64,000 bases of DNA, taken from assembly GCA_019096065.1 (NCBI GenBank), contig JAGUCH010000008.1, positions 2,423,001-2,487,000 of the forward strand. The letters run 5' to 3'. This document shows, piece after piece, positions 2,161 through 16,235 of the stretch (positions are counted from its first letter, which is position 1; every line of letters starts with the position of its first letter). The stretch is from Paracyclopina nana. Lineage: Eukaryota; Arthropoda; Copepoda; Cyclopoida; Cyclopettidae. The translations under genes and the position numbers were made by a program. The notes beneath the pieces were generated by a model, which saw nothing but the letters and a program-made list of their open reading frames with translations, did not search any database and was not told the DNA's origin.

Positions 2161-2304
2161 CCGCTAGATGGCGCTACAACAAGATTCAGCGGAAAGTTCG
2201 TATAAGCCATTCGTTCGTCAAAAAGGCCAAAAATTATTTATAGTGAAAAAATCCAATTCTGGTATTTTTGCCCCTTTTATGGTGGCAACATCTATACTGC
2301 TAAT
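2161..2304 (+). repeat. dispersed CTAGATGG repeat, copy 2, left part (split by the retroelement)
   Basis: Starts CCGCTAGATGGCGC (2161-2174) and reaches the right-end block GTGGCAACATCTA (2282-2294), then is interrupted at TAAT (2301-2304). The missing tail of the same copy resumes at 16190 after the second LTR, with a block ending CTAAATCTCTTGATG. Joining the two flanks with a single TAAT restores a normal family member, which proves that the LTR element landed inside a pre-existing repeat. Confidence 0.9.
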
Positions 2305-2541
2305 TATGAAGAAATGGAACCAGACGACGACCACAAGTAGGTCACGACGCCCGATCTCTCTTTTTTTGGCTCTACGCGCACGCCGCTGGTATATGTTACT
2401 TCTACCTGCATTTTTACTTCAGTATGCTAAAGTTTGCTTCGCTCACTTCACCCTAGCAAATAAAGTATACTCAAACCCGTTTCATCACTCTTCTACTCAT
2501 AAAACTGTTCGAACCCAGTTCTTCACCTCCATTTCATCATA
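2305..2541 (+). repeat. 5' LTR
   Basis: 237 bp, starting TATGAAGAAATGG and ending CCATTTCATCATA, which are imperfect inverted repeats of each other (one mismatch in 13). It contains its own promoter and poly(A) elements. The boundary was set by comparing both LTR flanks: the preceding base differs between copies (T versus C) and the following base differs (G versus T). With these limits the 4-bp duplication TAAT is exact. Confidence 0.95.
2390..2464 (+). promoter_or_regulatory. LTR core promoter and poly(A) signal
   Basis: TATATG at 2390-2395 is followed, 31 bp from its first base to the A, by an arthropod-type initiator TCAGT (2419-2423). AATAAA lies at 2459-2464, about 38 bp inside the predicted transcript start, as expected for an R region. 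The same elements recur at 16038-16112 in the 3' LTR. Predicted from motif spacing only. Confidence 0.6.
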
Positions 2542-2543
2542 GT

Positions 2544-2560
2544 TGGCTCCCACGGAATTG
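2544..2560 (+). other. probable primer-binding site
   Basis: TGGCTCCCACGGAATT begins two bases after the LTR. TGG pairs with the CCA end of a tRNA. I could not match the rest confidently to a particular tRNA family. Confidence 0.5.
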
Positions 2561-2902
2561 TATCAAGATCACGAGTGGAAGTGAAGTGCTTTTTCCGAGC
2601 GGGGGAGAAATAATATCATCTAAAGAAGACCTAGCCAGTCTAATTTGGATCGACTCCCTCAACAAAGTCGTACAGTGCTCCATCACTCCATCTGAACCAT
2701 AAAGGTAACCTTGCCTTAGACGAGATTAGCTACCTCAAAAAAGGACACTTCCGGCTACGCGCCCATATAAGTTAAAAGAGGCCCTTAATTCAGAGTCCCG
2801 TGTTGTGACTTACAGCTCAAACAAAGCCCTTAAGGCAATCTGGGCGGAGCATAGAAGTTCTTTCCTATCAACAACTTACTTTCACGTACATTAGGTTCAA
2901 AA
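2561..2902 (+). other. leader of the retroelement with candidate splice donor
   Basis: Untranslated leader between primer site and gag. AAAG|GTAACC at 2704/2705 is a plausible donor for spliced subgenomic messages of the downstream membrane-protein ORFs. A packaging signal would be expected here but cannot be recognised by eye. Confidence 0.4.
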
Positions 2903-4795
2903 ATGGCTGAATCTGGTGCTCATCATCATGACCACCACGAAGAGACTTTAGAGAACGCCATACAAAACGAGCTACTAGGCATTGCAGCTCGCATGGCCGT
3001 GCCTCCAAATGAAGTTTCACAAGATCGCAGAGCAAAACTTGCCACTAACAGGAAAATTGAGAAGCTTGAGAGAAACCTCCTCAAAATGCAAGAAAACGTC
3101 GACACCAGCTTCTCAACCATCACCAGAGCATTGAATGATGTTCATGAGTCAAACAAGGCCATTCTACAGCGCATGGAACCATCTCCGGACTCACCTCCAC
3201 AAGACCAACCTGAGCCAAGAAGATCTCGCCGATCAAGTGTGGCATCCTCCATCAGAGGAGACTCTCGAGCACCATCTCCTCATGCCAATGCTGGAGTAGC
3301 CCCACTCTTCCAAAGCTTGGCTTATGGAACTAGCAACCTTCTCCAAGGGAAAACTCATAAATATGAAAAGTCCCTTAAGGATCTGAAGGAATATGCTCGT
3401 CACAATTCAGTCCAAAACAGGGTGGAAATGGAACGAGATATTATCGCAGCAGAACTCAGGAACGACTTCCTTCAACTCATTCCAAAACTCATCCAAACGC
3501 AAAGAATCCCATGCCTGAAAACTGTCCCTTTCATTCCTGGATCAGATACAAGAGAGTCCAATGCGCTTTTTGTCCAACTAAAAAGAGAAAACTTGAAAGA
3601 GTTCCCAAGGTTGAGCAAGGCAAGCCCAGATGTGAGGCACATTATTGAAGCTATGGCTGAGCGACACGCAGGCGAGCTAACAGCCAAGCAGTTTGCCAAC
3701 CTCATTATACACCAGACTAACTCTCAACTCAAGGACACTTTCACCAACATTTTCAAGAGTCATGATGATATTAATGAAGCTATCAAGGAAATCCTTGAGA
3801 GCTATTGTTGCAGCAAGAGACCAGACGAACTCTTGTGCGAGTTTTATGACTCCAAAATTGACACGAAAAAGGTCGATGACTCGCTAACCAAGATAGTCGA
3901 AAAGGCTCGTTTGGCCTTCCCAGAACAAAGGAACGACGCCTTGACTAAGTTAGTTATCGATCATGTCATTCCCCAGCTGCCTTCAGAGGTACAAAAGGCA
4001 GTTAACCTTGAACGGACAAAGATTGCGGAACTCCAAAAAATATCACCCTTTGTTCCACCCATGGATTTGAACACGTTCAAAAACATGGTTACATCCCATC
4101 CTTCCATGACAAAAAGGGTAGTAAAAAACTTGGAAGTGGCCCCTCAAGCCATAAATAATGAGCCTACCACAACCGCAAGCATAAAAACCGGTTCTTCCAA
4201 CCACTCCAATGGCCATTTCGCTGCTAATAATCAAATCATCTCTGAAATGAAAGAAACGAACCAGTTATTGATGAAAACTGTGGCTGCACTCGAAAATCAG
4301 CCCAAGACTTACCAAAACGAAAAGGGAGGATACAACAGACCTCAAAAGTCTAAGCTGATTGTCTACAAAATTTCAGACCCCAAATTTTCTGAAATAGCAG
4401 CCAAGTTTGACAAAAAAGGCCCTCTTATGAATGTTCTTCTCATGGAAATTGATTCGTATGAACGAAACACCAGAAAGAGAGGCCCAAAGCTCAAGATGCT
4501 GGATGATCCACATTCGCGAATTCCCTACAAGTTTGACAATCTTGGACGCATTATTCCTGAAAATGCACCAATTGACTTTCCAGTATTTGTTGAAACTCAA
4601 CCGGGAAAGTATCGCATCTCTTTGAAAACTCTTGAAAGAATCTCTATTTCTTGTGCGAGATGTGGACATTTACTGTGTGGATTCAATGCTGAAAATTGCA
4701 TTTACAAGAGCTCCACTCCTAGCTTCAATGCATGCTCCAAATGCATGCAAGGTTTCCATCTTGATCACCAATGTCGAGCAGTTCCTTTAAACTAG
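2903..4795 (+). CDS. gag: Gag polyprotein of the LTR element
   Basis: Structural polyprotein of the particle, 630 residues. The N-terminus is His/Asp/Glu-rich and followed by a helical, probably coiled-coil segment and an Arg/Ser-rich linker near residues 105-125. Residues about 190-420 are a helical, capsid-like block. The C-terminus has a retroviral CCHC zinc knuckle of exact spacing C-X2-C-X4-H-X4-C (CSKCMQGFHLDHQC), preceded by a cysteine cluster C-X2-C-X4-C-X6-C that looks like a variant knuckle. The start AAAATGG has a good context. It ends TTA AAC TAG, with a slippery heptamer directly before the stop, so most ribosomes should make Gag and a minority Gag-Pro. Role inferred from position and the knuckle; the capsid region is too diverged to place in a clade by eye. 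Confidence 0.9.
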   Translation: MAESGAHHHDHHEETLENAIQNELLGIAARMAVPPNEVSQDRRAKLATNRKIEKLERNLLKMQENVDTSFSTITRALNDVHESNKAILQRMEPSPDSPPQDQPEPRRSRRSSVASSIRGDSRAPSPHANAGVAPLFQSLAYGTSNLLQGKTHKYEKSLKDLKEYARHNSVQNRVEMERDIIAAELRNDFLQLIPKLIQTQRIPCLKTVPFIPGSDTRESNALFVQLKRENLKEFPRLSKASPDVRHIIEAMAERHAGELTAKQFANLIIHQTNSQLKDTFTNIFKSHDDINEAIKEILESYCCSKRPDELLCEFYDSKIDTKKVDDSLTKIVEKARLAFPEQRNDALTKLVIDHVIPQLPSEVQKAVNLERTKIAELQKISPFVPPMDLNTFKNMVTSHPSMTKRVVKNLEVAPQAINNEPTTTASIKTGSSNHSNGHFAANNQIISEMKETNQLLMKTVAALENQPKTYQNEKGGYNRPQKSKLIVYKISDPKFSEIAAKFDKKGPLMNVLLMEIDSYERNTRKRGPKLKMLDDPHSRIPYKFDNLGRIIPENAPIDFPVFVETQPGKYRISLKTLERISISCARCGHLLCGFNAENCIYKSSTPSFNACSKCMQGFHLDHQCRAVPLN

Positions 4796-5253
4796 CTCGG
4801 CCCTTTCCAAAAACAGCAACTGTAAAAGAAGAAATATCATTAGTCACGTTCTCGGACATTTCACTCGCAGATATTGACACTGAAGATGATGACAACCCCA
4901 CCATTTCCTCTTCAATCGAACCTGACTGGTTAGATTCAGATGCTGCCTTGGAAATCGCATCCTCATTCGACTATCAAGAAATTTCGCAAGTCTCCAAAAT
5001 TCCTACTCCAGATATCATTTTAGAAGGACTCGATCTTCCAGTGATCAACGAAAGTCCTCTAAAAACAGCTTTGACAACAGACTTTGGCCTAAAAGTCGAC
5101 TTCACTGTCGACTCAGGTGCACAAGTCTCAATTCTCTCCGTCAAAACTTTCCAAGAGCTTTCCAAGACAAGTATTCCCTTTCTAATGAAAAACTCACATT
5201 GGTCGATGTCCAAAAGAATGAAATACCACAATACCAGTGTCCAATCGAACTAA
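4771..5253 (+). CDS. pro: protease frame (Gag-Pro), N-terminal half of the retropepsin
   Basis: Reached by the -1 step at 4786-4792; the ATG at 4771 lies inside gag and is probably not used. After an acidic spacer of about 100 residues comes the aspartic protease active site VDSGAQ (about 5107-5124). The frame ends at TAA 5251-5253, before the second half of the domain. The ILG-like motif that normally completes a retropepsin (LLGLDF) is in the next frame, inside pol. So the protease domain is split over two frames and needs another -1 step, or a one-base indel has arisen in this copy. Confidence 0.8.
   Translation: MSSSSFKLARPFPKTATVKEEISLVTFSDISLADIDTEDDDNPTISSSIEPDWLDSDAALEIASSFDYQEISQVSKIPTPDIILEGLDLPVINESPLKTALTTDFGLKVDFTVDSGAQVSILSVKTFQELSKTSIPFLMKNSHWSMSKRMKYHNTSVQSN
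4786..4792 (+). promoter_or_regulatory. -1 ribosomal frameshift site at the gag stop
   Basis: The heptamer T TTA AAC is in the gag reading frame, immediately followed by the gag stop TAG (4793-4795). This is the X XXY YYZ slippery form, of the same sequence used by coronaviruses. A -1 step here enters the protease frame directly. A downstream pseudoknot or stem is expected but I could not fold the RNA. Confidence 0.85.
5187..5193 (+). promoter_or_regulatory. candidate second -1 frameshift site (pro to pol)
   Basis: In the protease frame the codons ATG AAA AAC give the heptamer G AAA AAC, close to the A AAA AAC site used by MMTV but with a mismatch at the first position. A -1 step here continues in the pol frame. 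The pol frame is open well upstream of this point, so other positions are possible. Confidence 0.4.
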
Positions 5254-8200
5254 CCTTCAAACTACAAGGATTTCAGTTTAAGCACACATTTTTCATTGCC
5301 TCTTCAAGCAATCTACTTGGTTTAGATTTCATAACCACTCACAACCTTCAAATAATCCAACAAAAAGGTAGAACAAACCTCATCATAAGCTTTGAGCAAA
5401 AATCTGAACAAAAGTCTCTGCCATCTCCGGAAGGCTTAGACTCATGGGCTTCAGTGGACGAGATCGAAGTTCTACCCGGATTAAATGAGGTCACTGGCAC
5501 TCTGGATCTTCCGGATGGCCAATATAACTTGTCAATTCCCCGTGAATCACCCTTAAAGACAGTTGGATCACTTTCAGTCAGAGGGGGAAAATTCACTACC
5601 ACCATGGAAAACAAGTCTACTTCAAGATTCCCACTTTCCTGCAATGAAATCATTGGAAAAGTAACCACTGAGGATGAAGCCACCAAGCAAATAGATGAAG
5701 AGACAGTTGAACCAACCGGATTCCCATGCTTGACTACAGAAGAAAAAGATGACTGGAAAATGATTATTCGTGATAATCATTCTCACATCGATAAATCTGC
5801 AGTTGAAGACATCATATCATTCATGGAAAAGGAAACACCCAATCTTTTCAGCACACATGAATCCGACATTGGAAAGATCCATGAAAAGTTTGAAATCTTC
5901 TTTGACATAGAAACTACAACTGAAAAACCTGTCTACATCAAACCTTACACCTTGGACCCGCTCAGAGAAGCTCAACTGGCTGACCAACTCACTGAACTTG
6001 AGAAAATTGGAGTTCTGAAAAAAGGATTTTCACCATGGGCCATGCCATGTTTCTTGGTCACAAAAAGGAACGGAACATTAAGAGCAGTGTATAATGCTCG
6101 TGAACTGAACAAGGTAACAAAACCTGTAAAGTTCCCCTACAAGCCAATTAACACCATCATCGAAGAAATCTCATTGGCCAATCCCAAATATTTCACTACC
6201 ATTGACATTGCCTCAGCCTTTCTCTCTATTCCCATGACAGAGAGAGCACAAAAGATCTGTGCAATTGTCACCAATTCAGGTCAGTGGCTTCCCCTTCGAA
6301 TGATCTTTGGTCTCTCTAATGCTCCATCCTACTACAATTACTGCATGAGCCGCATCCTTGATACTGCAGACAAATCTCCGTGTAAGAGCAACTTTGTGTG
6401 CAACTACTCTGATGATGTCTGTCTTTATTCAAAAAGCTTTGAACTCAACATTCAGCAAACCAAAATCATACTCAGAACACTTTACAATGCTGGAATCAAA
6501 CTACGACCAAGAAAATTCCAGTTTGCCCAAAAAAGCATCGAACTTCTCGGCAAACACTTGGACCAAAATGGATTTTCCATTCTTCCTCGACACTTGTCTG
6601 CTGTCAAGAACTTTAAAAAGCCTGAGGACAAACACACTTTGATGTCCTTCATCGGCTTGGCTCAATGGAACGCTAACTTAGTTTATGCCTTTTCTGAAAA
6701 ATTGAAGCCACTCACCAAACTTTTACGGAAAGATGAAGACTTTGCCTGGGGTACCGAACAAGATCAAGCCTTTGACGATATTAAAAATGCCATTATCAAC
6801 TCTACAACGGTGTACTTTGTGAACTATAACGAACCGCTCTATCTCCATTATGACAGCAGCCTCAATGCCATCGCTGGCTATTGCTATCAGATCAAGTCCT
6901 TCTCCAGGGAGGAAGTCTCCAAATGGCATGAAGAACTTTATCAAGAGGAATCCCTCGATAGCAAGTCAAAATTGAACACAAAACATCCAGTCATCCCTCC
7001 ATCTGGAAAAAATAATCCAGGAATGGTAACACTGTCACCAATAGATGAAGCATTGAAGCAATATGAAAGTAACTTGAAAACCAACAACGAAGAGCTCTTC
7101 ATCAGAGACATCAGACATGAAGAACTTGACGAATTGGAACCCATCTCTACATATCTTCAGGAAAAGGACAAATTACACATAATTTGTCCTGTGGGTTTTT
7201 ACAGTGCAACGCTCAACAAGCAGCAATCCAGATATACCATTCTGGAACTTGAATGCCTTGCCCTTGTGAAATCACTTGAACATTTTGCTCATCTACTTCA
7301 TGGAGTTCCGACAACTTTTGTCTGTGGTGATAACATGGCACTTCTGTGGATCCTCAAATCATCCAAGCTGTCCCCAAATCCACCTCCAAAGCTAGTGAGA
7401 TGGTGCATCACGATTAGCTCAATGCCATTCAAATGCATCTTCCTACATTGCCAAGGAAAATACAATTTGTGTGCAGATGCCATGACTAGAAACTTTCCCA
7501 TAGTGTATAAAGCTGTTCAAAATGATGGTCAACTAGAACCCATTCTCATCACTTCACCGTTCAAGCTTGGTAAGGTTGTCACTTTAAATGATCTCCAAGA
7601 ATATCTAGAAAAAGTCTATGAAGAAGGTTTTGAGCCCAAGTTCAATGGAGAACAAAAGCTTGGGACACGCAAGAAAGACCCTAAAAAGACTTTTTCCTAC
7701 ATTGATTCGATTCCGGAGAAGATCCAAATTAACTACATTGGTAAGAAAAATCCAAAACATGAACTCGCTGAACTGCTGACTCTTGATAACATCGCAATGG
7801 AACAAGAAAAGGATGCCAATATTCAAAAAATGAGGAGAAATCCACCAAAAGGCTTCGCTTTTGAACAAAATGTTCTATACAAAACTGTTCAGAATCCAGA
7901 CCAATCCACTGAAAGGAGCCTTATTTATATTCCCGATTCTCTTCTTGGTGTACTTTTAGCCTATCTTCATTTGGATTGTCATATAGGAGGAACAAGCTTG
8001 GCACGAATGGCTGCTATGACTCATTATCATCCCAAGTTATTTAAGTCAGCTTTGAACTTCACAATCCAATGTTATCTTTGCCAACTCGCCAAACCCAATC
8101 GACTTGGAAAGGCCAAGCTAAAACCTATCTCATATGGAGAATCACCAAAAGGCCATACCTTTTCAATTGACATCCTCGAAGGCTATCCTGAGTTTTATAA

Positions 8201-9266
8201 AAGCTCCAAAATCCTTGTCATGATTGAGTACTTTACTGGTTACAAGATCATAGTACCCGTCAAGAATGCGACTGGTGACGAAATTGCCAAGATTATTGAA
8301 CAATACATCATTGCAGTGTTTTCACCACCTAAAATCCTCATCTCTGATGGTGCCTCCAACCTTGTCTCTTCATCAAAAGTTAGAAGACTTCTGGAGTATT
8401 ATGACATCCACCCACATGTGACAATGCCATACTCTCCTCAAGCTCACTCAATTGTGGAAAATGCAGTTCAACAAGTCAGCAACCTCATCCGGATTTTGAC
8501 CAATCAACTTAAACTACCCTGGATCAAACTCTTGTATCTTGTTCAACTTTCTTTGAACACTCGCCCCTCACCAAGAATTGGCAACATTAGCCCCATTTAT
8601 GCTTACTTTGGAGTTGATCACGACAGACTAAGACCAGTTACAGAAAAGGACATTGTCGAACCAAGCACAATCAAAGACATCTGGAAAGCTCATGACGCCA
8701 TTATACAAGAAGCAATCAATAAGAACACTCAGCTCAAAAAGCAAGCAAGAGAAAAGATTCCTGGAAAAGACATCAACTATGAGCCTGGCACTTACGTTTT
8801 CATGCTTGATAAGAGAAAACACGAAAAGCCAAAGATTTGGGTACGTTATCACACGAGCCCTTACCTGGTCCTCAAGAACTTGCAAAACACATGCCTTCTA
8901 AAAAGTTTCAATGGAGTTGTCTTTCCTGCTCACAAGAATCTCCTGAAGAAATGCTCTCCTCGCTTCGCTGAGCTCTATGGAAATTTGCCATTAAGTGTTA
9001 GATTCATGCTTGGATCACACTTCACATTGGAGTCTCTCGAACCGTACATGGAAATCCAAAAGACCCCTGAATTCTTCGATGAGGACATTTTCAAGCCCAT
9101 TGCAAAGGGCCGTGTAATGACACGTGGTGAATCAAAAAGACTAAAGGAGCAAGAAAAAGCTCAAAGTGTCAACTCTCAGCTTCCAATCATTGACCAGATG
9201 TTCCTGGATGATGAAGAAGATGAACAAGCTATGCCATATGAACCTACTGTACATTTCGCAGAATGA
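5199..9266 (+). CDS. pol: Pol: protease C-terminus, reverse transcriptase, RNase H, integrase
   Basis: About 1355 residues, no ATG needed because it is reached by frameshift. Order: end of the retropepsin (LLGLDF near residue 45), reverse transcriptase (about 190-450, with FGLSNAP and the catalytic YSDD near residue 402), RNase H (Asp near 551, Glu in LELECLA near 683, Asp in CGDN near 709, Asp in CADAMT), then integrase. The integrase has a zinc-binding HHCC region (CYLCQLAK near 960) and a D,D,E core (SIDI near 990, SDGA near 1048, VENA near 1085). The domain order with integrase after RNase H identifies Ty3/gypsy type. Oddity: roughly 130 residues separate the first two RNase H acidic residues, about 90 more than usual. 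About 60 residues of acidic tail follow the integrase. Confidence 0.93.
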   Translation: MVDVQKNEIPQYQCPIELTFKLQGFQFKHTFFIASSSNLLGLDFITTHNLQIIQQKGRTNLIISFEQKSEQKSLPSPEGLDSWASVDEIEVLPGLNEVTGTLDLPDGQYNLSIPRESPLKTVGSLSVRGGKFTTTMENKSTSRFPLSCNEIIGKVTTEDEATKQIDEETVEPTGFPCLTTEEKDDWKMIIRDNHSHIDKSAVEDIISFMEKETPNLFSTHESDIGKIHEKFEIFFDIETTTEKPVYIKPYTLDPLREAQLADQLTELEKIGVLKKGFSPWAMPCFLVTKRNGTLRAVYNARELNKVTKPVKFPYKPINTIIEEISLANPKYFTTIDIASAFLSIPMTERAQKICAIVTNSGQWLPLRMIFGLSNAPSYYNYCMSRILDTADKSPCKSNFVCNYSDDVCLYSKSFELNIQQTKIILRTLYNAGIKLRPRKFQFAQKSIELLGKHLDQNGFSILPRHLSAVKNFKKPEDKHTLMSFIGLAQWNANLVYAFSEKLKPLTKLLRKDEDFAWGTEQDQAFDDIKNAIINSTTVYFVNYNEPLYLHYDSSLNAIAGYCYQIKSFSREEVSKWHEELYQEESLDSKSKLNTKHPVIPPSGKNNPGMVTLSPIDEALKQYESNLKTNNEELFIRDIRHEELDELEPISTYLQEKDKLHIICPVGFYSATLNKQQSRYTILELECLALVKSLEHFAHLLHGVPTTFVCGDNMALLWILKSSKLSPNPPPKLVRWCITISSMPFKCIFLHCQGKYNLCADAMTRNFPIVYKAVQNDGQLEPILITSPFKLGKVVTLNDLQEYLEKVYEEGFEPKFNGEQKLGTRKKDPKKTFSYIDSIPEKIQINYIGKKNPKHELAELLTLDNIAMEQEKDANIQKMRRNPPKGFAFEQNVLYKTVQNPDQSTERSLIYIPDSLLGVLLAYLHLDCHIGGTSLARMAAMTHYHPKLFKSALNFTIQCYLCQLAKPNRLGKAKLKPISYGESPKGHTFSIDILEGYPEFYKSSKILVMIEYFTGYKIIVPVKNATGDEIAKIIEQYIIAVFSPPKILISDGASNLVSSSKVRRLLEYYDIHPHVTMPYSPQAHSIVENAVQQVSNLIRILTNQLKLPWIKLLYLVQLSLNTRPSPRIGNISPIYAYFGVDHDRLRPVTEKDIVEPSTIKDIWKAHDAIIQEAINKNTQLKKQAREKIPGKDINYEPGTYVFMLDKRKHEKPKIWVRYHTSPYLVLKNLQNTCLLKSFNGVVFPAHKNLLKKCSPRFAELYGNLPLSVRFMLGSHFTLESLEPYMEIQKTPEFFDEDIFKPIAKGRVMTRGESKRLKEQEKAQSVNSQLPIIDQMFLDDEEDEQAMPYEPTVHFAE

Positions 9267-9310
9267 ATATTAGACAAATGTGATACAAATGATGATGGAT
9301 GAATGATAAC

Positions 9311-9335
9311 CTCTACACTCTACTTTGACTTCTAG
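9311..9335 (+). promoter_or_regulatory. candidate splice acceptor for the envelope-like mRNA
   Basis: A pyrimidine-rich run ending TGACTTCTAG lies eight bases before the ATG of the envelope-like ORF. Gypsy errantiviruses express env from a spliced subgenomic RNA, so this fits, with the leader donor at 2705 as a likely partner. Not verified by transcripts. Confidence 0.5.
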
Positions 9336-9342
9336 CCCAACT

Positions 9343-10968
9343 ATGAGTACAAGGATGAAACAACTTCTGTGGAGTTTGGCGTTGGCAACACTGCTCCACA
9401 ACACGAGTGTGACAAGCACTCACTTCTGCAAGGCTTACAACATTGTGTCCTTGTCAGAAACACTCAATCAACTACATCAGCTCCTAGAGCCTCTAGTTGA
9501 TGCCATCTCGAACCAAATTACTGATGTGGAGACTTTTGCAAAAGTTCGCATTGTCAACGACAAAGTTTACAAGCTGATCAATGTTCAAGACAAGTTTGCC
9601 ACTTCAAAATTGGTCTGCGAGATCGAGAAGATGACTTTCATCAAGCCCAAAGGTGATTTTGCATCTGTTTTAAAGAAGATAGAGGCAGGTGTGAGAGACC
9701 CACCTAACTTCAAATTCGATGACAAGAAAATCTGGGTAAATCTTCAATATGACAAAAGAACTGATTCCTACTACTTCGACGGTGAACCATTTCCACTATA
9801 CTGGGGAGACAATGTTGAGAATCTAAGTGTCAAGCCTACTTCATTTGATGAAAACAAGTGCTATCGGATCGTCGTACCAAACAATTACGACGACAACACT
9901 GTTTTTGTAATTGAAGATGTGGCTTGCAGGAACGGACAAGCTTTGACACTGTGTGAAGCTGCCATTCCGGACAATTATGAAAAGTACACTTCCCTTCGAA
10001 AAGTTTACTCAGCAGAACTCACTACTATCAAAGACAACTTCCCAAATGGAAAAGAGTTAATCCAAGAGTTGAATCAAGCTGATTGGTGCGATCAATATCA
10101 AGAAAGCAATGTGGATGAACTCTTTCTGGACCACCCTTTACAAGAAGTGAAGAATCTACTAGAATCTACTCCACCCAATATGGAGTTGATCTTTGACCTT
10201 CTTCCTAATCTAGTGAATGATTATGTCACAGCGGACAATATTATTCAGAGATTGGATAATAGTGCAAAATCTATGGATGGAAACCAAATTTGCATTTGTG
10301 ATGAAGAAGAAAAACAAAACTCCGCTGAAATCAACCCTCCTACTACAGTTATTAATGGCTCTATACCCACTAAGACAAAAAGGCCAAAGGTGATAAAAAC
10401 ACTTCCAGCTGATAAGCCATCAATCAACATCACTGAGATTTTTGATAAGGCAAAAGAAAAACTGCCAGATTGGATCACTAAACATACAAATCCTAAAGTG
10501 CTGGATATTATATTTAGTATCATAGGCGGTATATCTGGAATTGTCACCTTGATCACAAGCCTTTTCCTCGTCATAAGAAGCTGTCGGAAAGATGGATTTA
10601 TGTGCCATAAAAGAAAAAGATTTGTTGCTTTTAAAGTACCTGCCAACAAGGCGAGTCCCAAAACTACCAATCGTAATGAAACTGAAATGGCCACTTTTCT
10701 CCCATCAAAAAAGGACTCTTCAAGCGAGGGGGAAAATGATAAAAGTGATGTCTATTTTGTGACTCAAGATTCAAAATCAAAGAAACAAATGGACAACACA
10801 AAACCTTCAAGACCACCAAGAAGAAGCCCAAGAGCCAAAAGATCTGTAAAAGTGATTGATGTTGCTCATGTCCATAGCATTGATCCCAGGAGACACAGCA
10901 ACTATTCCTGTTACACAAGTGAGGATGAAATTCAAGCAGCAAGCAAAATTCACCCCTACTATGACTAA
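9343..10968 (+). CDS. envelope-like type I membrane protein
   Basis: 541 residues from ATG 9343. Hydrophobic signal peptide at residues 5-25 (KQLLWSLALATLL), a large ectodomain with scattered cysteines and several N-X-S/T sites, one transmembrane helix near residues 387-410 (FSIIGGISGIVTLITSLFL), then a basic, Ser/Pro-rich cytoplasmic tail of about 130 residues (RPPRRSPRAKR). Its position directly after pol and its topology match the env slot of errantiviruses. I saw no convincing furin site or fusion peptide, so homology to known envelope proteins is not shown. Alternative: an unrelated captured membrane protein. The reading frame is intact. Confidence 0.75.
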   Translation: MSTRMKQLLWSLALATLLHNTSVTSTHFCKAYNIVSLSETLNQLHQLLEPLVDAISNQITDVETFAKVRIVNDKVYKLINVQDKFATSKLVCEIEKMTFIKPKGDFASVLKKIEAGVRDPPNFKFDDKKIWVNLQYDKRTDSYYFDGEPFPLYWGDNVENLSVKPTSFDENKCYRIVVPNNYDDNTVFVIEDVACRNGQALTLCEAAIPDNYEKYTSLRKVYSAELTTIKDNFPNGKELIQELNQADWCDQYQESNVDELFLDHPLQEVKNLLESTPPNMELIFDLLPNLVNDYVTADNIIQRLDNSAKSMDGNQICICDEEEKQNSAEINPPTTVINGSIPTKTKRPKVIKTLPADKPSINITEIFDKAKEKLPDWITKHTNPKVLDIIFSIIGGISGIVTLITSLFLVIRSCRKDGFMCHKRKRFVAFKVPANKASPKTTNRNETEMATFLPSKKDSSSEGENDKSDVYFVTQDSKSKKQMDNTKPSRPPRRSPRAKRSVKVIDVAHVHSIDPRRHSNYSCYTSEDEIQAASKIHPYYD

Positions 10969-11050
10969 TGGATATGCAACATCAACTTTTCGCCTTCAAA
11001 TACAGTATAGCCAAGCATTTTACATCTAGTTCAACACAACAGCAATTTTA

Positions 11051-12361
11051 ATGAGCCATTATTGCACATTAAGCACGAAGAAGATACACTATCAAATTGC
11101 AAAACCTCAGTCTCATCTACTACCAAGAAGAAGCAACATGAGTCCACTCCAATTCTTCGTCATCACCTTAAGATTGATTTCTGCCATAGAAGCCAAATCA
11201 ATCTCTGAGATTGAATTCCTCAACAACTATGTCCTCAATCAACAACGACTAACCACCTGTCTTGCATCCGAAGCTGAACTCAAGGAAAACAACCAGGAAT
11301 TGAAGACCAAAATTACCACCTTGACTGATCAACTTGACAAGTGCCAAACAACCTATGCTGCCATGATAACAGAAGAGAAGGAGAATAACAAATCTACTTA
11401 TCTGGATCCAACGGCAGACACCGATCTTGAGGAGCAAGAGGCTCTTTTTCAAAACATAAGTGTGGCCTCTCAAGATTTGATCAATGCTTCATCCAGATTG
11501 AATCCCAATCAAGGTCTCCGTGATGTCCCTTGTCAAAGAAAAGTCATCATCCTGGAAAAACTCTATGATTATGCCAAATCCAAGGTTGAGGATATGCTAA
11601 TTACCATGTCAGCTCAAGAAGAACGCCTCAATACAGAAATCCTTAACCTCCAAAAGGATCTATCCAATCAAAAGGTCCTCAACATTGAGCTCCAAGCTAC
11701 AATTGCCTCACTAGAAGATGTCAAGACTGGTACGGTCCCCATTTATGACGAATTGATTGGAACCCCTGGATTCGACACCGCTCTGAGAAACAATCCTACC
11801 TTGACGATGTGGCTCACCATCCCCACCTCGATCTTAGTCCTCCTGGCTTTGGCATTCTTCACATATCTACTTCATAAGTGCTCAGAGAACAACTTTTTCC
11901 TTCTGAGACAGCTTGGAACCAGAGCTAGAAAATACGTGAAACGTCAAGACAAAAAGTTGAGATCCAGAATCCAAGTACGACTTACCAAGATGAGGAAAGC
12001 CAAGGACTCCATGGAAAATGAAAACTTCGACGAGGATATTCTTGACCCTTCGAAGGACATCTTAAAGTCTGTGGAGAAAAGCATTATCAAAAACGAGCGT
12101 AAACTTGAGGCCATGAAGCACAAAAAGGCCAAGCTCATGGAGATGATGCCACAACCTGGAAACTCACCTTCAACTCTACCCAACACTCCCACTATTCACG
12201 TTGAAACCGCAGTTGAAGTTCATGTCGCTGATGACAACAATTCTGACGGCAACAACGTCGATGACGACAACATTGAGGTGAACACTTCTTCCACTGAGAA
12301 AATCGTCGCTGATGTCACTGCGGCCTCCCAAGTTGAAAAGGCCCAGTGTAAAACTGATTAA
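11051..12361 (+). CDS. second membrane protein of the retroelement, coiled coil plus one TM helix
   Basis: 436 residues from ATG 11051. A more likely start is ATG 11138, which places a hydrophobic signal (FFVITLRLISAIEA) at the very N-terminus and leaves 407 residues. The ectodomain is rich in Leu, Gln, Glu and Asn with heptad-like patterning (coiled coil around 30-75 and 150-210 of the short form), followed by a transmembrane helix near 224-246 (IPTSILVLLALAFFTYLL). A basic then acidic cytoplasmic tail follows. A candidate acceptor TACATCTAG lies at 11021-11029. It could be a partner of the first envelope-like protein, for example a separate fusion or attachment subunit; that is inference only. 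No family recognised. Confidence 0.7.
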   Translation: MSHYCTLSTKKIHYQIAKPQSHLLPRRSNMSPLQFFVITLRLISAIEAKSISEIEFLNNYVLNQQRLTTCLASEAELKENNQELKTKITTLTDQLDKCQTTYAAMITEEKENNKSTYLDPTADTDLEEQEALFQNISVASQDLINASSRLNPNQGLRDVPCQRKVIILEKLYDYAKSKVEDMLITMSAQEERLNTEILNLQKDLSNQKVLNIELQATIASLEDVKTGTVPIYDELIGTPGFDTALRNNPTLTMWLTIPTSILVLLALAFFTYLLHKCSENNFFLLRQLGTRARKYVKRQDKKLRSRIQVRLTKMRKAKDSMENENFDEDILDPSKDILKSVEKSIIKNERKLEAMKHKKAKLMEMMPQPGNSPSTLPNTPTIHVETAVEVHVADDNNSDGNNVDDDNIEVNTSSTEKIVADVTAASQVEKAQCKTD

Positions 12362-12978
12362 AATGCATTTGGAATCACTTGCATCCACTTTCGAATAAAA
12401 TTAACAAAATCACTTTGTTTTGCCATGCTTTAGGAAAATGTCAACAAAAATTAAGTTGGTCGGAAAAATAGCTCGATCTAGACACTTCATTTTCCAACCT
12501 GATTCTCCATGGATCCAAACGCCAAAATCCTCACCAATTGGTGCCCTCGATGGCGTAATGGCATTCTCTGATTATATTTTCGCAAAATCTTTGAAAATGA
12601 TCAAAACCATCAAAGCAAGAATTTTCCCAAATTAGCCTTAAAAATAACTGCTCGATTCACACGGCTTGATGATTAGTAAACAACAACAACTGTCATGTGG
12701 ACCGTGGGAAAATTCATCCTCATTCATCTATCAGCTGATGTTTTGACAAGTCATCTCAGGCCTACTTCCGGACGCCATAATAAGGAAAGTAAATCTGTCA
12801 ATTATAAGGAATCTTCAAAAATCAGTCACATCACACCTTTCAAAAGTAATTGCCATATATTGGTCATTTGCTGGCTTAACATCATAACAATTATTAAACA
12901 AAGTGACTAGATTAAAGCTTCCTCTTCTGTAAAAGGACAGCCATTCGAGCTGACCTCCTCTCTTGGGCCATCTTGGCC
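12362..12978. other. non-coding stretch inside the retroelement
   Basis: Separates the sense membrane-protein ORF from the antisense block. AATAAA near 12395 could end a sense message. Short open frames at 12420-12910 show no features. This is the natural 3' region for both the sense and the antisense transcripts converging here. Confidence 0.5.
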
Positions 12979-13880
12979 CTAATGGCCATCCTCCGACTCG
13001 GGACTTCCATTGGAGTTGGGGCAACCTGGCTGGAAGAATCCAGGCCCCCCTTGACGAAAGGGCTGCTGCCCTTGACCCTCCTGGTCACCGACGACGCCAT
13101 TGCCATTACTGGCCAGTCCAGCCGAGGCCACTACCTCGCCGTTATCGCCGACAGCATCATAAATGCCATCCTCGAGGTTGACATCCTCAAAAGGTGCTGA
13201 TGGGGTAGGCCAACTCGATTGACCTGACTCCACATCTTCGGGCCATCTCGCCAAACGGGGGAGGATGAGGTCACGGACCAACACTGTCCTCTCTGTGGAG
13301 CCTGGCGGGTGGAAAACAAGAGAGAGGTACTCGCCAGACAACACCTCTCTCACAAACGCGTCATTCCCATCGAAGTTCGTGGCTAACAAGTAAGGCAGGA
13401 CCACACGCACCAAATTGGCCAACGTCTGAGCAGCCTCCGTAGGCTTCGGCCTCACTGGCAACTGCTCCTTCCCGCACATGTCATGAAAGACATACCCCAG
13501 AAATGGTCCAAACGTCAACGGGAAGAACATAGCCGCCAAAAACTTAACAAAGATGTCAAGCCATGCATTCCGGAGAGCCTAGAACATAGGAACAGTGAAA
13601 GTGAAAGCGCCCTTTAAAATTCATATCAACTTACTTTACGAGTGAAAAACCCGTACACCATGTACGCGAGGAAGACGAGGAAGACGAGGACCATGTACAC
13701 CACCACCACCAAGAAACCGAGCTCACCAATCAACAGTGACCCCACACCTTCTTCAGGCTGACACATATTAGCCCTAAGCCAATTCGGATCCACAAACTTG
13801 GACACCTCATTCCGGATCTCGCCGACCTCCGAGGCTACCTTACTGAGCCGGTACTCGTTCATACGCTGAACTGATGACAT
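12979..13880 (-). CDS. antisense gene A of the retroelement, spliced single-TM protein
   Basis: Two exons, 13880-13635 and 13578-12979, separated by a 56-bp intron with GTAAGT and TTCTAG ends. Both junctions are in phase 0 and give 281 residues. The N-terminus is a short helical region, followed by one strong membrane segment near residues 52-78 (LGFLVVVVYMVLVFLVFLAYMV). After it comes a soluble region and a low-complexity Gly/Gln/Pro tail ending in acidic residues. The ATG is preceded by an acceptor-like TTTTCAG at 13885-13891, so a further 5' exon is likely, possibly the donor at 14516. It runs against gag-pol transcription and contains an intron that genomic RNA would keep, so a separate antisense promoter is required. 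No family recognised. Confidence 0.7.
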
Positions 13881-13973
13881 GACGCTGAAAAGTCAATGAT
13901 TAAACAAAGTGATTGACAGTAAAGCAAAACTAGCAAACTTAAAAAGGCTGAGGAAACATCTATTTACAAAAGC

Positions 13974-14462
13974 TTAACAGAAAGGAAAAAGAGGGAAGAA
14001 GGAACAGAATGGAGAAACTGGTGGCGAATAGGACATGGTTTGTGACACCACCAGGATCATCAACACCATAGCCATCAATCCGTATCGCCTGGTTGACCCT
14101 GACCAGACGAGGACTCCATAAAAGAGGCTGGCAAGGCCTCCAGCCAGGCCTACAATGATGCCAATCAGAGCCAAGATCAGCCTTCTCAAAAGTCTTCGTC
14201 GCCATCTCCCAGCTTCCACTCTACTTGGCCCCCCATAGTAATCCCGCCATGCCATCCGATAGTCAAGTGATGCCAAGGCCAGAATGGCCATGGCAAGGAC
14301 CCAAAGAGCCCTTAGACGAGGTGACAAGCCCGACGCAGCCTCCGTCAACGCCTCCAAATCCACAAGGAATCTCTTCAAAAGGCGAATTACTTCTTGACTA
14401 GAATCGTTGGCCATCCAGAATTGGAGGCCATGGGCAATAAGCTCCGTTATGAAATCAGCCAT
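13974..14462 (-). CDS. antisense gene B of the retroelement, multi-TM protein
   Basis: 162 residues from ATG 14462. The ATG directly follows an acceptor (TTTGTAG), and a donor CAAG|GTAAGT lies at 14516/14515, giving a 53-bp intron. The upstream exon (14516 to at least 14635) can be read in frame, adding up to 40 residues, or may be leader. Three hydrophobic segments are visible: ALWVLAMAILALA near residue 55, LILALIGIIVGLAGGLASLFY near 95 and LMAMVLMILVV near 130. Between the first two lies an Arg-rich loop. This region is visibly richer in G+C than gag-pol. No homologue recognised. Confidence 0.65.
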   Translation of the reverse strand: MADFITELIAHGLQFWMANDSSQEVIRLLKRFLVDLEALTEAASGLSPRLRALWVLAMAILALASLDYRMAWRDYYGGPSRVEAGRWRRRLLRRLILALIGIIVGLAGGLASLFYGVLVWSGSTRRYGLMAMVLMILVVSQTMSYSPPVSPFCSFFPLFPFC

Positions 14463-14515
14463 CTACAAATCAAATGTTTCCACAGCCCTGAAGAAAATGC
14501 TAAAGTGTAACTTAC

Positions 14516-14635
14516 CTTGACAAAGACTCCGCAAAAAACCGTAATGGTGACTGACCGGGAATGAAAATTCGAATGACCTGGCTTATGAATGCTACCCAAA
14601 AAAGTTGACCTCATGTCCCTGCTTCTCAACCTCAT
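14516..14635 (-). other. upstream exon of the antisense transcript
   Basis: Ends at a strong donor (GTCAAG|GTAAGT). It may be spliced to gene B (acceptor at 14463) or skip to gene A (acceptor at 13885), which would produce two proteins from one antisense pre-mRNA. It is open in the gene B frame. The 5' limit is not determined. Confidence 0.5.
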
Positions 14636-14781
14636 GCAAGAGACAGGTTAATACAGCCCATTCAGCCCGCTACAGGTCCACACTCCTGACTTCACCTGTT
14701 GCCACCACAAGTCTGTTCAGCTATACGTGCACTCCTAAGCCGAATTCAAGCTAGTTGCCTGACAACAGCTACCAGACAAAG

Positions 14782-15282
14782 ATGCATCTTTTGCAACTAT
14801 TGCTCGAAAGCACCAATCTAATCATGCAAACATGGCTTACCTTGGCCTCGTTCATTTGCATGATCATTGGAGCGTTTACGATCGTGGCCAAAATTATCTC
14901 ATTAAGAAAAATGAAGAAAACTCAAATCATTCACGTGACCATTGGCATCTCTAAAATCTTGAAAGCCTTCAATTTAGTGACATTTGTTGAAGCTTCATCA
15001 AACTCAACCATAGAGTATCACGGAACACTTTGTCGCATCATCATCAACTACTCTTTCTGCAACAACTATTTTCACTTCCTTATGGATTCGCCAATCAAAA
15101 AGATCAATTTCATTTGCGAACCACACTCCATTGAAGAACTCATCCTGGACATTGATGAATTAAGCAGATTGAAGTCCATTGAAGACACAGTACAGAAACT
15201 TTACAGGCTTGCCTTCAGGGGAAATTCCACTACTAACCGCCAAAGAGGACTCGCCCGACATGAAGCAAGAAACAGGTTTTAA
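14782..15282 (+). CDS. short sense-strand membrane protein of the retroelement
   Basis: 166 residues from ATG 14782. A membrane segment sits near residues 17-38 (WLTLASFICMIIGAFTIVA), preceded by a short Leu-rich stretch and followed by a Lys/Arg cluster, suggesting an anchor. The remainder is soluble with five or so cysteines. It lies convergent to gene C with a 69-bp gap. Origin and function unknown; it could be an accessory protein or a third surface protein. It must be translated from a spliced or internally initiated sense message, since it is more than 12 kb from the cap. Confidence 0.6.
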   Translation: MHLLQLLLESTNLIMQTWLTLASFICMIIGAFTIVAKIISLRKMKKTQIIHVTIGISKILKAFNLVTFVEASSNSTIEYHGTLCRIIINYSFCNNYFHFLMDSPIKKINFICEPHSIEELILDIDELSRLKSIEDTVQKLYRLAFRGNSTTNRQRGLARHEARNRF

Positions 15283-15351
15283 TATCAGCCCACAACGAAA
15301 TCTACAATAAGTCCACATGGAGAAGATCAGCCCAAAAACATCACTAACAAT

Positions 15352-15917
15352 TTATTCATCATCTTTCTCATTCTCAAAAGTATCATACTCTAATGATATT
15401 TCATCACACAACATGACTTCCCTGGAAACAGCTTCCACTTGGTCATCTTCATCACCCATATTTGAAATAGTAATCTCAAGACTCTCTCTTGTCTCCATCA
15501 TAATGCCTGATCCGGATTTTGAAGATGACGCTGCCCTTATTTGGTTGGAGTCCTCTAAAACCAGATCACGGAAATATGACAAGTCAATGTGAAGATTCTT
15601 CTCAAGAGCCCTCCGCACTTTTCTCCTGAATATTGGTGATCTCTTCAAATACCGGCATACCTCCTCGTACTGTCTCCTTTTCAACGACAAAATGATCCTT
15701 TTCAACGTATTCACCAATGATGCGGCCTCCAACCTAAAATTGACACTTCTTGGGTCGACCCCATCGCCATTCCCCAGTTCGTCCATGGGCAAACGATGGA
15801 TCATCATAAGAAGATCGACATAGGCAATGCAAATCGACACCTAAATTGGAAAAATCACATTATTATAGACGTCGTGATTCATTTCTTCAATCATACCTGA
15901 CTGGTCCTAGCCTTCAT
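15352..15917 (-). CDS. antisense gene C of the retroelement, spliced, starting beside the 3' LTR
   Basis: Two exons: 15917-15897 (ATG plus six codons, ending CAG|GTATGA) and 15840-15352 (acceptor CAATTTAG). The 56-bp intron is in phase 0 and the product has 169 residues. The centre is strongly basic with repeated Lys/Arg pairs (LKRRQYEEVCRYLKRS, RRKVRRALEK), and the last 70 residues are acidic and Ser/Glu-rich. No signal peptide or membrane helix. Only 35 bp separate the ATG from the LTR, so the natural promoter is on the antisense strand of the 3' LTR. Basic-plus-acidic composition would fit a regulatory or RNA-binding protein, but that is inference; no family recognised. Confidence 0.7.
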
Positions 15918-15930
15918 CGTGGAAGGCTAG
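15907..15930. repeat. perfect 9-bp hairpin at the antisense start codon
   Basis: CTAGCCTTC (15907-15915) and GAAGGCTAG (15922-15930) are exact inverted complements around a six-base loop. The antisense ATG of gene C occupies the loop edge, and the purine tract follows ten bases later. Confidence 0.7.
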
Positions 15931-15940
15931 CTTCTTCTTC

Positions 15941-15952
15941 CGGGGGGATATC
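15941..15952 (+). other. polypurine tract
   Basis: CGGGGGGATATC directly precedes the 3' LTR, the usual place for priming of second-strand synthesis. Confidence 0.7.
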
Positions 15953-16189
15953 TATGAAGAAATGGAACCAGACGACGACCACAAGTAGGTCACGACGCCC
16001 GATCTCTCTTTTTTTGGCTCTACGCGCACGCCGCTGGTATATGTTACTTCTACCTGCATTTTTACTTCAGTATGCTAAAGTTTGCTTCGCTCACTTCACC
16101 CTAGCAAATAAAGTATACTCAAACCCGTTTCATCACTCTTCTACTCATAAAACTGTTCGAACCCAGTTCTTCACCTCCATTTCATCATA
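15953..16189 (+). repeat. 3' LTR
   Basis: Same 237 bp as the 5' LTR with no difference seen. Followed by TAATG, giving the TAAT duplication. Confidence 0.95.
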
Positions 16190-16235
16190 TAATGAAAACA
16201 TCCTGAGCTAAATCTCTTGATGTAAGCTATAAAAC
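16190..16235 (+). repeat. dispersed CTAGATGG repeat, copy 2, right part
   Basis: Tail of the copy interrupted by the retroelement, containing GAGCTAAATCTCTTGATG and AAGCTAT as in other members. Confidence 0.85.

Follow-up and report, generated by a model that had tools for sequence, protein, structure and literature searches.

In the copepod Paracyclopina nana, a 13,885-bp long terminal repeat (LTR) retroelement carries behind pol a block of minus-strand genes that is under purifying selection and is predicted to contain introns. The element occupies positions 2305-16189 of the window, by which we mean the whole 64,000-nucleotide stretch analysed here (GenBank assembly GCA_019096065.1, contig JAGUCH010000008.1, positions 2,423,001 to 2,487,000). 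We give about even weight to the following reading, taken as a whole: an animal retroelement would keep by selection an intron-bearing antisense module of membrane-protein genes that is transferred as a unit from one repeat family to another; the antisense placement would permit the introns; and two opposed transcription programmes would operate, one in sense serving replication and envelopes, the other antisense, alternatively spliced and serving membrane accessory proteins. With clearly greater confidence, we regard the element itself as a Ty3-type (Metaviridae-like) retroelement that has been active recently and is propagated in the form of a many-gene provirus.

Selection on the genes of both strands

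The ratio of nonsynonymous to synonymous rates (dN/dS) was determined over 10 copies of the family, with each variable site counted once, kappa estimated from the data (4.99) and intervals obtained by bootstrap. One copy filled with indels (C1:13076280-13090214, the C1 copy in the following) was excluded throughout, and a copy with a large deletion was counted only where its sequence is present. gag, pol, env1, env2, s3, as1, as2 and as3 were under purifying selection within the family (Table 1), and a kappa of 2 gave the same picture. Pooled, as1, as2 and as3 held 42 synonymous and 16 nonsynonymous sites, corresponding to a dN/dS of 0.16 (0.08-0.27; p = 2e-11), and for each of them the in-frame minus-strand reading showed the lowest ratio of all six readings. 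Other readings of the eight selected frames lay between 0.76 and 7.1, except for the opposite-strand frame sharing third positions, which gave a weaker echo (0.18-0.47), as expected. Over codons 1-130 of as3 the ratio was 0.07, the last 32 codons having one variable site and being uninformative.

An earlier note on this DNA had supposed that selection probably maintains the extra genes behind pol. This held for env1, env2, s3 and as1-as3 (dN/dS 0.11-0.28) but not for as4, where the ratio was not significant and where the own frame, at 0.41 with a kappa of 2, was not set apart from two other readings (0.46 and 0.41). The possibility that the extra open reading frames (ORFs) might be broken in most copies was not borne out, most of them being open in most copies (Table 1). 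Two small ORFs, at 15317-15592 (+) and 13960-14205 (-), were rejected as genes on account of own-frame ratios of 3.3 and 1.0. Within each of these stretches one other reading fell to 0.27 and 0.23, respectively (p = 0.03 and 0.04), the second being the as3 frame; this is the noise level to weigh for short stretches. Third-position GC skew, tried as an indicator of long residence or of relic orientation, was too weak or mixed.

Antisense genes and their predicted splicing

On the minus strand, as2 ends at a GTAAGT donor at 13634 and as1 starts after an AG at 13579. Removal of the 56 nt in between gives an in-frame protein of 281 residues. as2 and as1 are thus most likely, and with good support, exons of one antisense gene. 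In all eight further copies that could be judged cleanly the donor was unchanged and the acceptor AG was kept, with an acceptor motif that differs between the window copy and the rest; the C1 copy (L013) keeps both sites in noisy sequence, and L016 lacks the region. AGGTRAGT strings were no commoner in the window than in shuffles. By eye, neighbouring host genes have introns of about 50-60 nt, a size like that of the as2-as1 intron. Two sense membrane proteins and a short third one, s3, had been described in the earlier note and are borne out; its three separate antisense genes are not, since the evidence favours as3 plus a spliced as2-as1.

Seven stop-to-stop frames of at least 160 codons (162, 162, 168, 175, 199, 443 and 552) were found in 9300-15952, against a mean of 0.2 and a largest count of 4 in 300 dinucleotide shuffles; between 12.4 and 15.95 kb there were four (shuffle mean 0.2, largest 2). 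The 168-codon frame, a minus-strand one within env1, has a selected sense gene on the other strand and was left out of the gene count. A Pfam scan of three antisense stretches (12982-13539, 13977-14462 and 15355-15840) gave no match at 0.1, TRP28 included. The antisense genes may also be read as a trans-spliced operon, given the AG just ahead of the antisense ATGs, but a candidate cis donor precedes as3.

Relics of the module elsewhere in the genome

The genome (92 Mb, 10 contigs) was searched for relics with as1, as3, env1 and an as1 relic, only the best candidates being scored. At L033 (C3:1.09 Mb), as3-like, as2-like and as1-like stretches follow each other in the order and on the strand seen in the element, and partial copies of the module were found at L034 (C8:6.74 Mb), L030 (C3:5.76 Mb) and L029 (C7:5.62 Mb). 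DNA likeness was 72-94% over the matched stretches, and 72-87% for those longer than 100 bases. When spliced, the as2-as1 relic at L033 is stop-free over about 200 codons and aligns across the junction with a score of 232, where 500 shuffles reached at most 62. Its first intron lies at the same place, in phase 0, and is 204 nt long with extra internal sequence. Splice-like sites before the ATGs were kept in the relics as well. Since these relics outside the element share its gene order and splice layout, as3 and as2-as1 form a module present in more than one repeat context, and the antisense block was probably captured ready-made.

The as1 relic at L033 has a second intron of 58 nt, in phase 1, which is cleanly absent from as1 of the element; this would fit either a former passage of the gene through a spliced antisense RNA or a gain of the intron in the relic lineage. 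About 0.6 kb separates the as2-as1 relic at L029 from an env1-like relic (26% identity) on the same strand, both within a 3.1-kb insert (4317-7480) inside a copy of another Ty3 family. This insert is a chimera, with the as2-as1-like relic between 113-nt direct repeats and the env1-like relic between 51-nt direct repeats. Beside the relic module at L033 stands a repeat of about 450 bp with inverted ends (L033:5927-6375), which was found in at least 40 other places (40 of 351 candidates scored), and a long open repeat of NNSQQQSTTV units adjoins the module at L034 (5594-6434).

Insertion history and alternative explanations

With the first 1 kb of the element as query, the genome search found 11 family copies at 99-100% identity with distinct flanks, plus one lone LTR. 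Every copy has its own 4-bp target-site duplication (TSD; TAAT, GCAG, CTTT, GCAA, TAAT, ACTC, CATC, ACGA, GAGG, CAGT and TATA). The two LTRs of the window copy, 237 nt each, are 100% identical, and no LTR-to-LTR substitution was found in any of the 11 copies, the C1 copy showing two gap columns. This confirms the identical LTRs and the recent insertion reported in the note. Judged from LTR positions, 10 of the 11 copies are 13.9-14.0 kb long. The 12.9-15.9 kb block was complete in 10 of 11, so that a check for full-length copies without it came out in favour of the block. The copy at C3:9795072 has a single deletion of 3,515 nt, corresponding to 11618-15132, with a full-length pol frame and an open env1. 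Substitutions relative to the window copy numbered 58-83 in the 5' half for nine of ten copies (one fetched over 5.5 kb only) and 137 for the C1 copy; in the 3' half they numbered 38-94 for eight of ten, 167 for the C1 copy and 14 for the deleted one. Internal divergence of about 1% together with the absence of LTR substitutions in 11 pairs suggests that most differences predate the insertions, and selection would then have acted while the element was replicating.

The indels of the C1 copy, 63 and 48 in its two halves and mostly of one to three bases, span about 2.4-14.8 kb in window numbering, the last 1.4 kb being free of them; this copy is either a poorly polished stretch of the assembly or decayed. 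No further element match was found within 10 kb on either side of the lone LTR at C2:3020468, which has an internal gap.

Differences that mostly arose before insertion would also be expected if the copies, instead of being made within the genome, had each entered the germline on their own from an exogenous virus that carries these genes and is still infectious. We take this as a tentative but serious alternative. It fits with two envelope-like genes under selection and with the relatives of env1 in other sources, two in number and 98% and 56% identical (5.8 billion proteins, 7,999 candidates scored), the latter of which suggests that env1 is older than this expansion. However, error-prone reverse transcription inside one genome would give the same picture, and three scans of IMG/VR viral contigs, one each for pol, an alignment of pol and an alignment of env1, with few peptide patterns per scan, found no relative.

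We consider it unlikely that a cluster of host genes was captured to form the antisense block, although introns of host size and the long stop-free reading of the spliced relic at L033 would agree with such an origin. By reading, none of the four outside loci is whole: as3 at L030 has a stop, parts or slipped frames are present at L029 and L034, and at L033 as1 ends early. The absence of a whole copy among the best candidates scored argues against a plain host gene, albeit not as proof; moreover, the sequence is repeated among these candidates, and a protein-database query with one spliced product returned no relative.

Less probable still is a passenger role, in which another mobile element inserted into an ancestor and was copied along without use. 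Relics of the module do exist outside the element, and the copy lacking the block retains env1 as an open frame, along with a pol frame of full length. Against this stand the pooled dN/dS of the three antisense ORFs within the family and the fact that as1 and as3 are each open in 9 of 11 copies, the exceptions being the deleted and the indel-filled copy. Insertion may well be the origin of the block; only the part 'without use' is disfavoured.

It is very improbable that chance, or constraint on something read from the sense strand, explains the open antisense frames, and for as1-as3 this is contradicted: open frames do arise by chance opposite coding genes, but the longest sense frames opposite as1, as2 and as3 have 80-94 codons, none reaching 160, long frames exceed those of shuffles, the minus-strand reading is the lowest of six, and the protein likeness of the L033 relic spans the intron; for as4, with its own frame no better than two other readings, this explanation may apply.

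Several points speak against a recently active many-gene provirus with a selected, spliced antisense module. One copy has lost the antisense block, and frame breaks occur in the gag, pol or env genes of several copies. The dN/dS intervals are wide, with 15-28 variable sites per antisense ORF among copies that are related. Neither Pfam and NCBIfam nor the protein database yielded a relative for the antisense proteins. Taken alone, the as3 relic match is weak (score 68; best shuffle 66) and depends on gene order, and the leader-intron likeness is weak too, 36 of 1000 shuffles reaching it. Splicing, promoters and frameshift are predicted from sequence, and any function given to the antisense proteins is conjecture.

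Table 1. Features of the element in window coordinates, with open frames among the 11 copies and site counts and dN/dS over the copies analysed
Feature	Position	Strand	Remarks	Open copies	Syn/nonsyn	dN/dS (interval)	p
Target-site duplication	2301..2304		TAAT, 4 bp; repeat at 16190-16193				
5' LTR	2305..2541	+	ends TATG...CATA				
Candidate primer-binding site	2544..2555	+	2 nt past LTR; sequence reading				
Candidate sense splice donor	2705..2706	+	AAAG|GTAACC, for env mRNAs; sequence reading				
gag	2903..4795	+	630 aa; cysteine-rich C terminus	7	27/16	0.24 (0.11-0.42)	< 0.002
Protease frame	4765..5253	+	-1 relative to gag; 31-nt overlap				
pol	5199..9266	+	reverse transcriptase, RNase H, integrase; Ty3-type		70/33	0.19 (0.12-0.28)	< 0.002
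Candidate splice acceptor	9334..9335	+	AG, 7 nt before env1 ATG				
env1	9343..10968	+	541 aa; signal-like N terminus; one transmembrane (TM) stretch, 393-411; 130-aa tail	9	15/10	0.26 (0.11-0.56)	< 0.002
Candidate splice acceptor	11028..11029	+	AG before env2				
env2	11138..12361	+	407 aa from internal ATG 11138 (436 aa from 11051); one mid-protein TM; counts from M30	7 (one further with altered tail)	16/11	0.28 (0.12-0.58)	< 0.002
as1	12979..13578	-	3' exon of as2-as1	9	20/8	0.17 (0.07-0.36)	< 0.002
Intron	13579..13634	-	56 nt, GTAAGT...AG, phase 0; position and phase also in relics L033 and L029 (L029 by reading)				
as2	13635..13880	-	5' exon of as2-as1; strong TM; acceptor-like TTTTCAG 4 nt before ATG	7	10/5	0.19 (0.05-0.56)	< 0.002
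as3	13974..14462	-	162 aa; two TM stretches; TTTGTAG immediately precedes ATG	9	12/3	0.11 (0-0.26)	< 0.002
Candidate leader intron	14463..14516	-	54 nt, AAG|GTAAGT...GTAG|ATG, before as3; similar layout at L033				
s3	14782..15282	+	166 aa; N-terminal TM	7	19/6	0.13 (0.04-0.28)	< 0.002
as4	15352..15807	-	151 aa; without TM	11	7/9	0.50 (0.19-1.56)	0.13
Candidate polypurine tract	15940..15952	+	G-rich; sequence reading				
3' LTR	15953..16189	+					

gag, protease and pol

The Ty3/gypsy-type pol recognised in the earlier note was corroborated. Ty3-type reverse transcriptase, RNase H and integrase follow the protease in the order of Metaviridae (Pfam, the protease match lying below the cut-off), and among solved structures Ty3 was closest (7q5b, 1e-45; 4ol8, 6e-38), followed by 8wus at 2e-22. 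The metal-binding and catalytic positions of the three enzymes, with columns assigned by ourselves, were invariant relative to six pol relatives (P0001-P0006) of 32-34% identity. TSDs of 4 bp in all 11 copies fall within the 4-6 bp of Metaviridae. The LTR ends differ from TG...CA, which is common in Metaviridae but not strict. The nearest other pol in the genome is at most 29% identical (34 of 682 candidates scored), so that the family seems to stand alone there. The 1,355-residue stretch of pol is unbroken in 5 of 11 copies, including that of the window, and one further copy has a single stop.

The note's statement that all frames are open fails at the protease frame of the window copy, which is disrupted by a 1-nt difference that separates it from pol. 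The other 10 copies lack this difference; in the family, protease and pol form one frame, stop-free over 1,491-1,500 codons in four other copies. An arrangement of gag, protease and pol in three frames with two programmed frameshifts was rejected, the second frame change being absent from these 10 copies. For gag, neither a recognised domain nor a Pfam gag match was found. The seven cysteines at its C terminus have a spacing unlike that of the usual CCHC knuckle, and a likeness to baculovirus P35 (Pfam 0.01, below the cut-off; PDB 0.48) was taken as chance.

Envelope-like genes and surroundings

env1 carries N-glycosylation motifs. It had no Pfam or NCBIfam family match, a slightly longer version of the frame giving the same Pfam outcome, and its best PDB profile match had an E value of 0.04; an AlphaFold2 model from 3 sequences reached a mean pLDDT of 31 and was set aside. 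env2 probably starts at the internal ATG, where a signal-peptide-like stretch begins, and its ectodomain is heptad-rich and coiled-coil-like (by eye). Two sub-threshold Pfam matches of env2 to unrelated families (0.041 and 0.045) were taken as chance; no NCBIfam match and no PDB match at 0.1 were obtained. The tail of env2 varies in length, with insertions of 54 to 87 nt in L010, L011 and L013 (window 12199-12280), two of them at one site.

Neighbouring host genes code for an amiloride-sensitive sodium channel, Kazal and Ig-domain proteins, a proteasomal ATPase, SF3A2 and a PP2A A-subunit-like HEAT protein. The genome also contains another Ty3-type family in high copy number, the one whose L029 copy holds the chimeric insert. 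It encodes a Monjiviricetes-type (chuvirus-like) fusion glycoprotein (PF24664, E = 1.4e-72; L029:7612-9492, minus strand), with at least 73 matched genome stretches (70 of 466 candidates scored).

Comparison with known systems

Antisense ORFs located 3' of pol occur in Grande, RIRE2, Retand, PvRetro13 and the fungal Boty, the plant ones being known since the 1990s (PMC7264820); in Grande, RIRE2, Retand and Boty most copies have them (PMC7264820, PMC11963269). The passages on the plant ORFs in that paper call their origin and function unknown and report no similar genes, transposons or viruses outside the elements (PMC7264820); those of Retand mostly carry a TRP28 domain (PMC11963269). As far as these accounts go, the present element resembles them in having antisense ORFs between pol and the 3' LTR that are conserved across copies (PMC7264820, PMC11963269), whereas, unlike what is described for the plant ORFs, relatives of its module were found outside the element (PMC7264820). 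It further differs from the plant and fungal elements by its animal host, its membrane proteins (theirs being nuclear or of the TRP28 type), the inferred intron and two envelope-like genes.

The antisense gene HBZ of human T-cell leukemia virus type 1 (HTLV-1) has a spliced form and is located near the 3' LTR. HBZ is a nuclear protein (PMC11963269). Both cases concern antisense genes in a retrovirus-like genome, but the proteins found here have membrane-spanning stretches and belong to a Ty3-type element. LTR retrotransposons of bdelloid rotifers carry varied extra ORFs that are shared between unrelated retroelements (PMC5408684); these are of the ORF3 type, and a term search of that paper met the word 'antisense' a single time, in connection with small RNAs, and found no gene in antisense (PMC5408684). 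In the open-licence PMC literature, with the top matches judged by title and start of the abstract, no animal LTR element with a spliced antisense block of membrane genes was found.

Errantiviruses, such as gypsy of Drosophila, combine a Ty3-type pol with an envelope gene and have TSDs of alternating pyrimidine and purine. Their single envelope gene likely derives from baculoviruses, as stated in the part of PMC12440569 concerned with them. The element, in contrast, has two envelope-like genes without baculovirus match, in addition to s3 and the antisense genes. An envelope of errantivirus type is not supported: env1 had no Pfam match and env2 only the sub-threshold ones mentioned, neither of F type; a furin-type site is absent from the env1 ectodomain and from all of env2, the sole one (R-x-K/R-R) lying in the env1 tail; and only one of 11 TSDs (TATA) alternates. 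Troyka elements are defined in the same source by a 3-bp TSD and CG...CG ends (PMC12440569), which differ from the 4-bp TSDs and TATG...CATA ends here. Anakin and its kin, again following that source, are LTR elements with a captured glycoprotein of chuvirus type (PMC12440569); such a family exists in the same genome, but env1 and env2 did not match its Pfam model. The complex-retrovirus-like gene plan put forward in the note holds for layout, as several accessory genes under selection stand beside gag, pol and env as in complex Retroviridae. It does not hold for descent, since Ty3 matches pol far better than retroviral reverse transcriptases do (structures only), the closest solved structure being that of yeast Ty3.

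Proposed working of the element and its meaning

We propose that the LTR would drive a sense RNA from which Gag and a -1 frameshifted Pro-Pol are made, and that the leader donor would be joined to the acceptors before env1 and env2 to yield glycoprotein mRNAs. The antisense transcript would start from a promoter of its own on the minus strand, 5' of 14.5 kb, and its leader exon would be joined to the acceptor of either as3 or as2, removal of the 56-nt intron following. As the RNA that is packaged has the sense orientation, the antisense introns would not be spliced from it and would persist through every round of reverse transcription. as3 and as2-as1 are predicted to be small membrane proteins. 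As a best guess, drawn by likeness to accessory proteins of complex retroviruses, they would serve, together with s3, the membrane side of the cycle, in assembly, egress or control of re-infection.

All in all, the antisense ORFs described here belong to an animal element, are under measurable purifying selection, have an inferred intron and code for membrane-spanning stretches. As relatives of the module occur outside the element, an origin by module capture can be tested. Gene plans like those of complex retroviruses could thus have arisen outside the vertebrate retroviruses.

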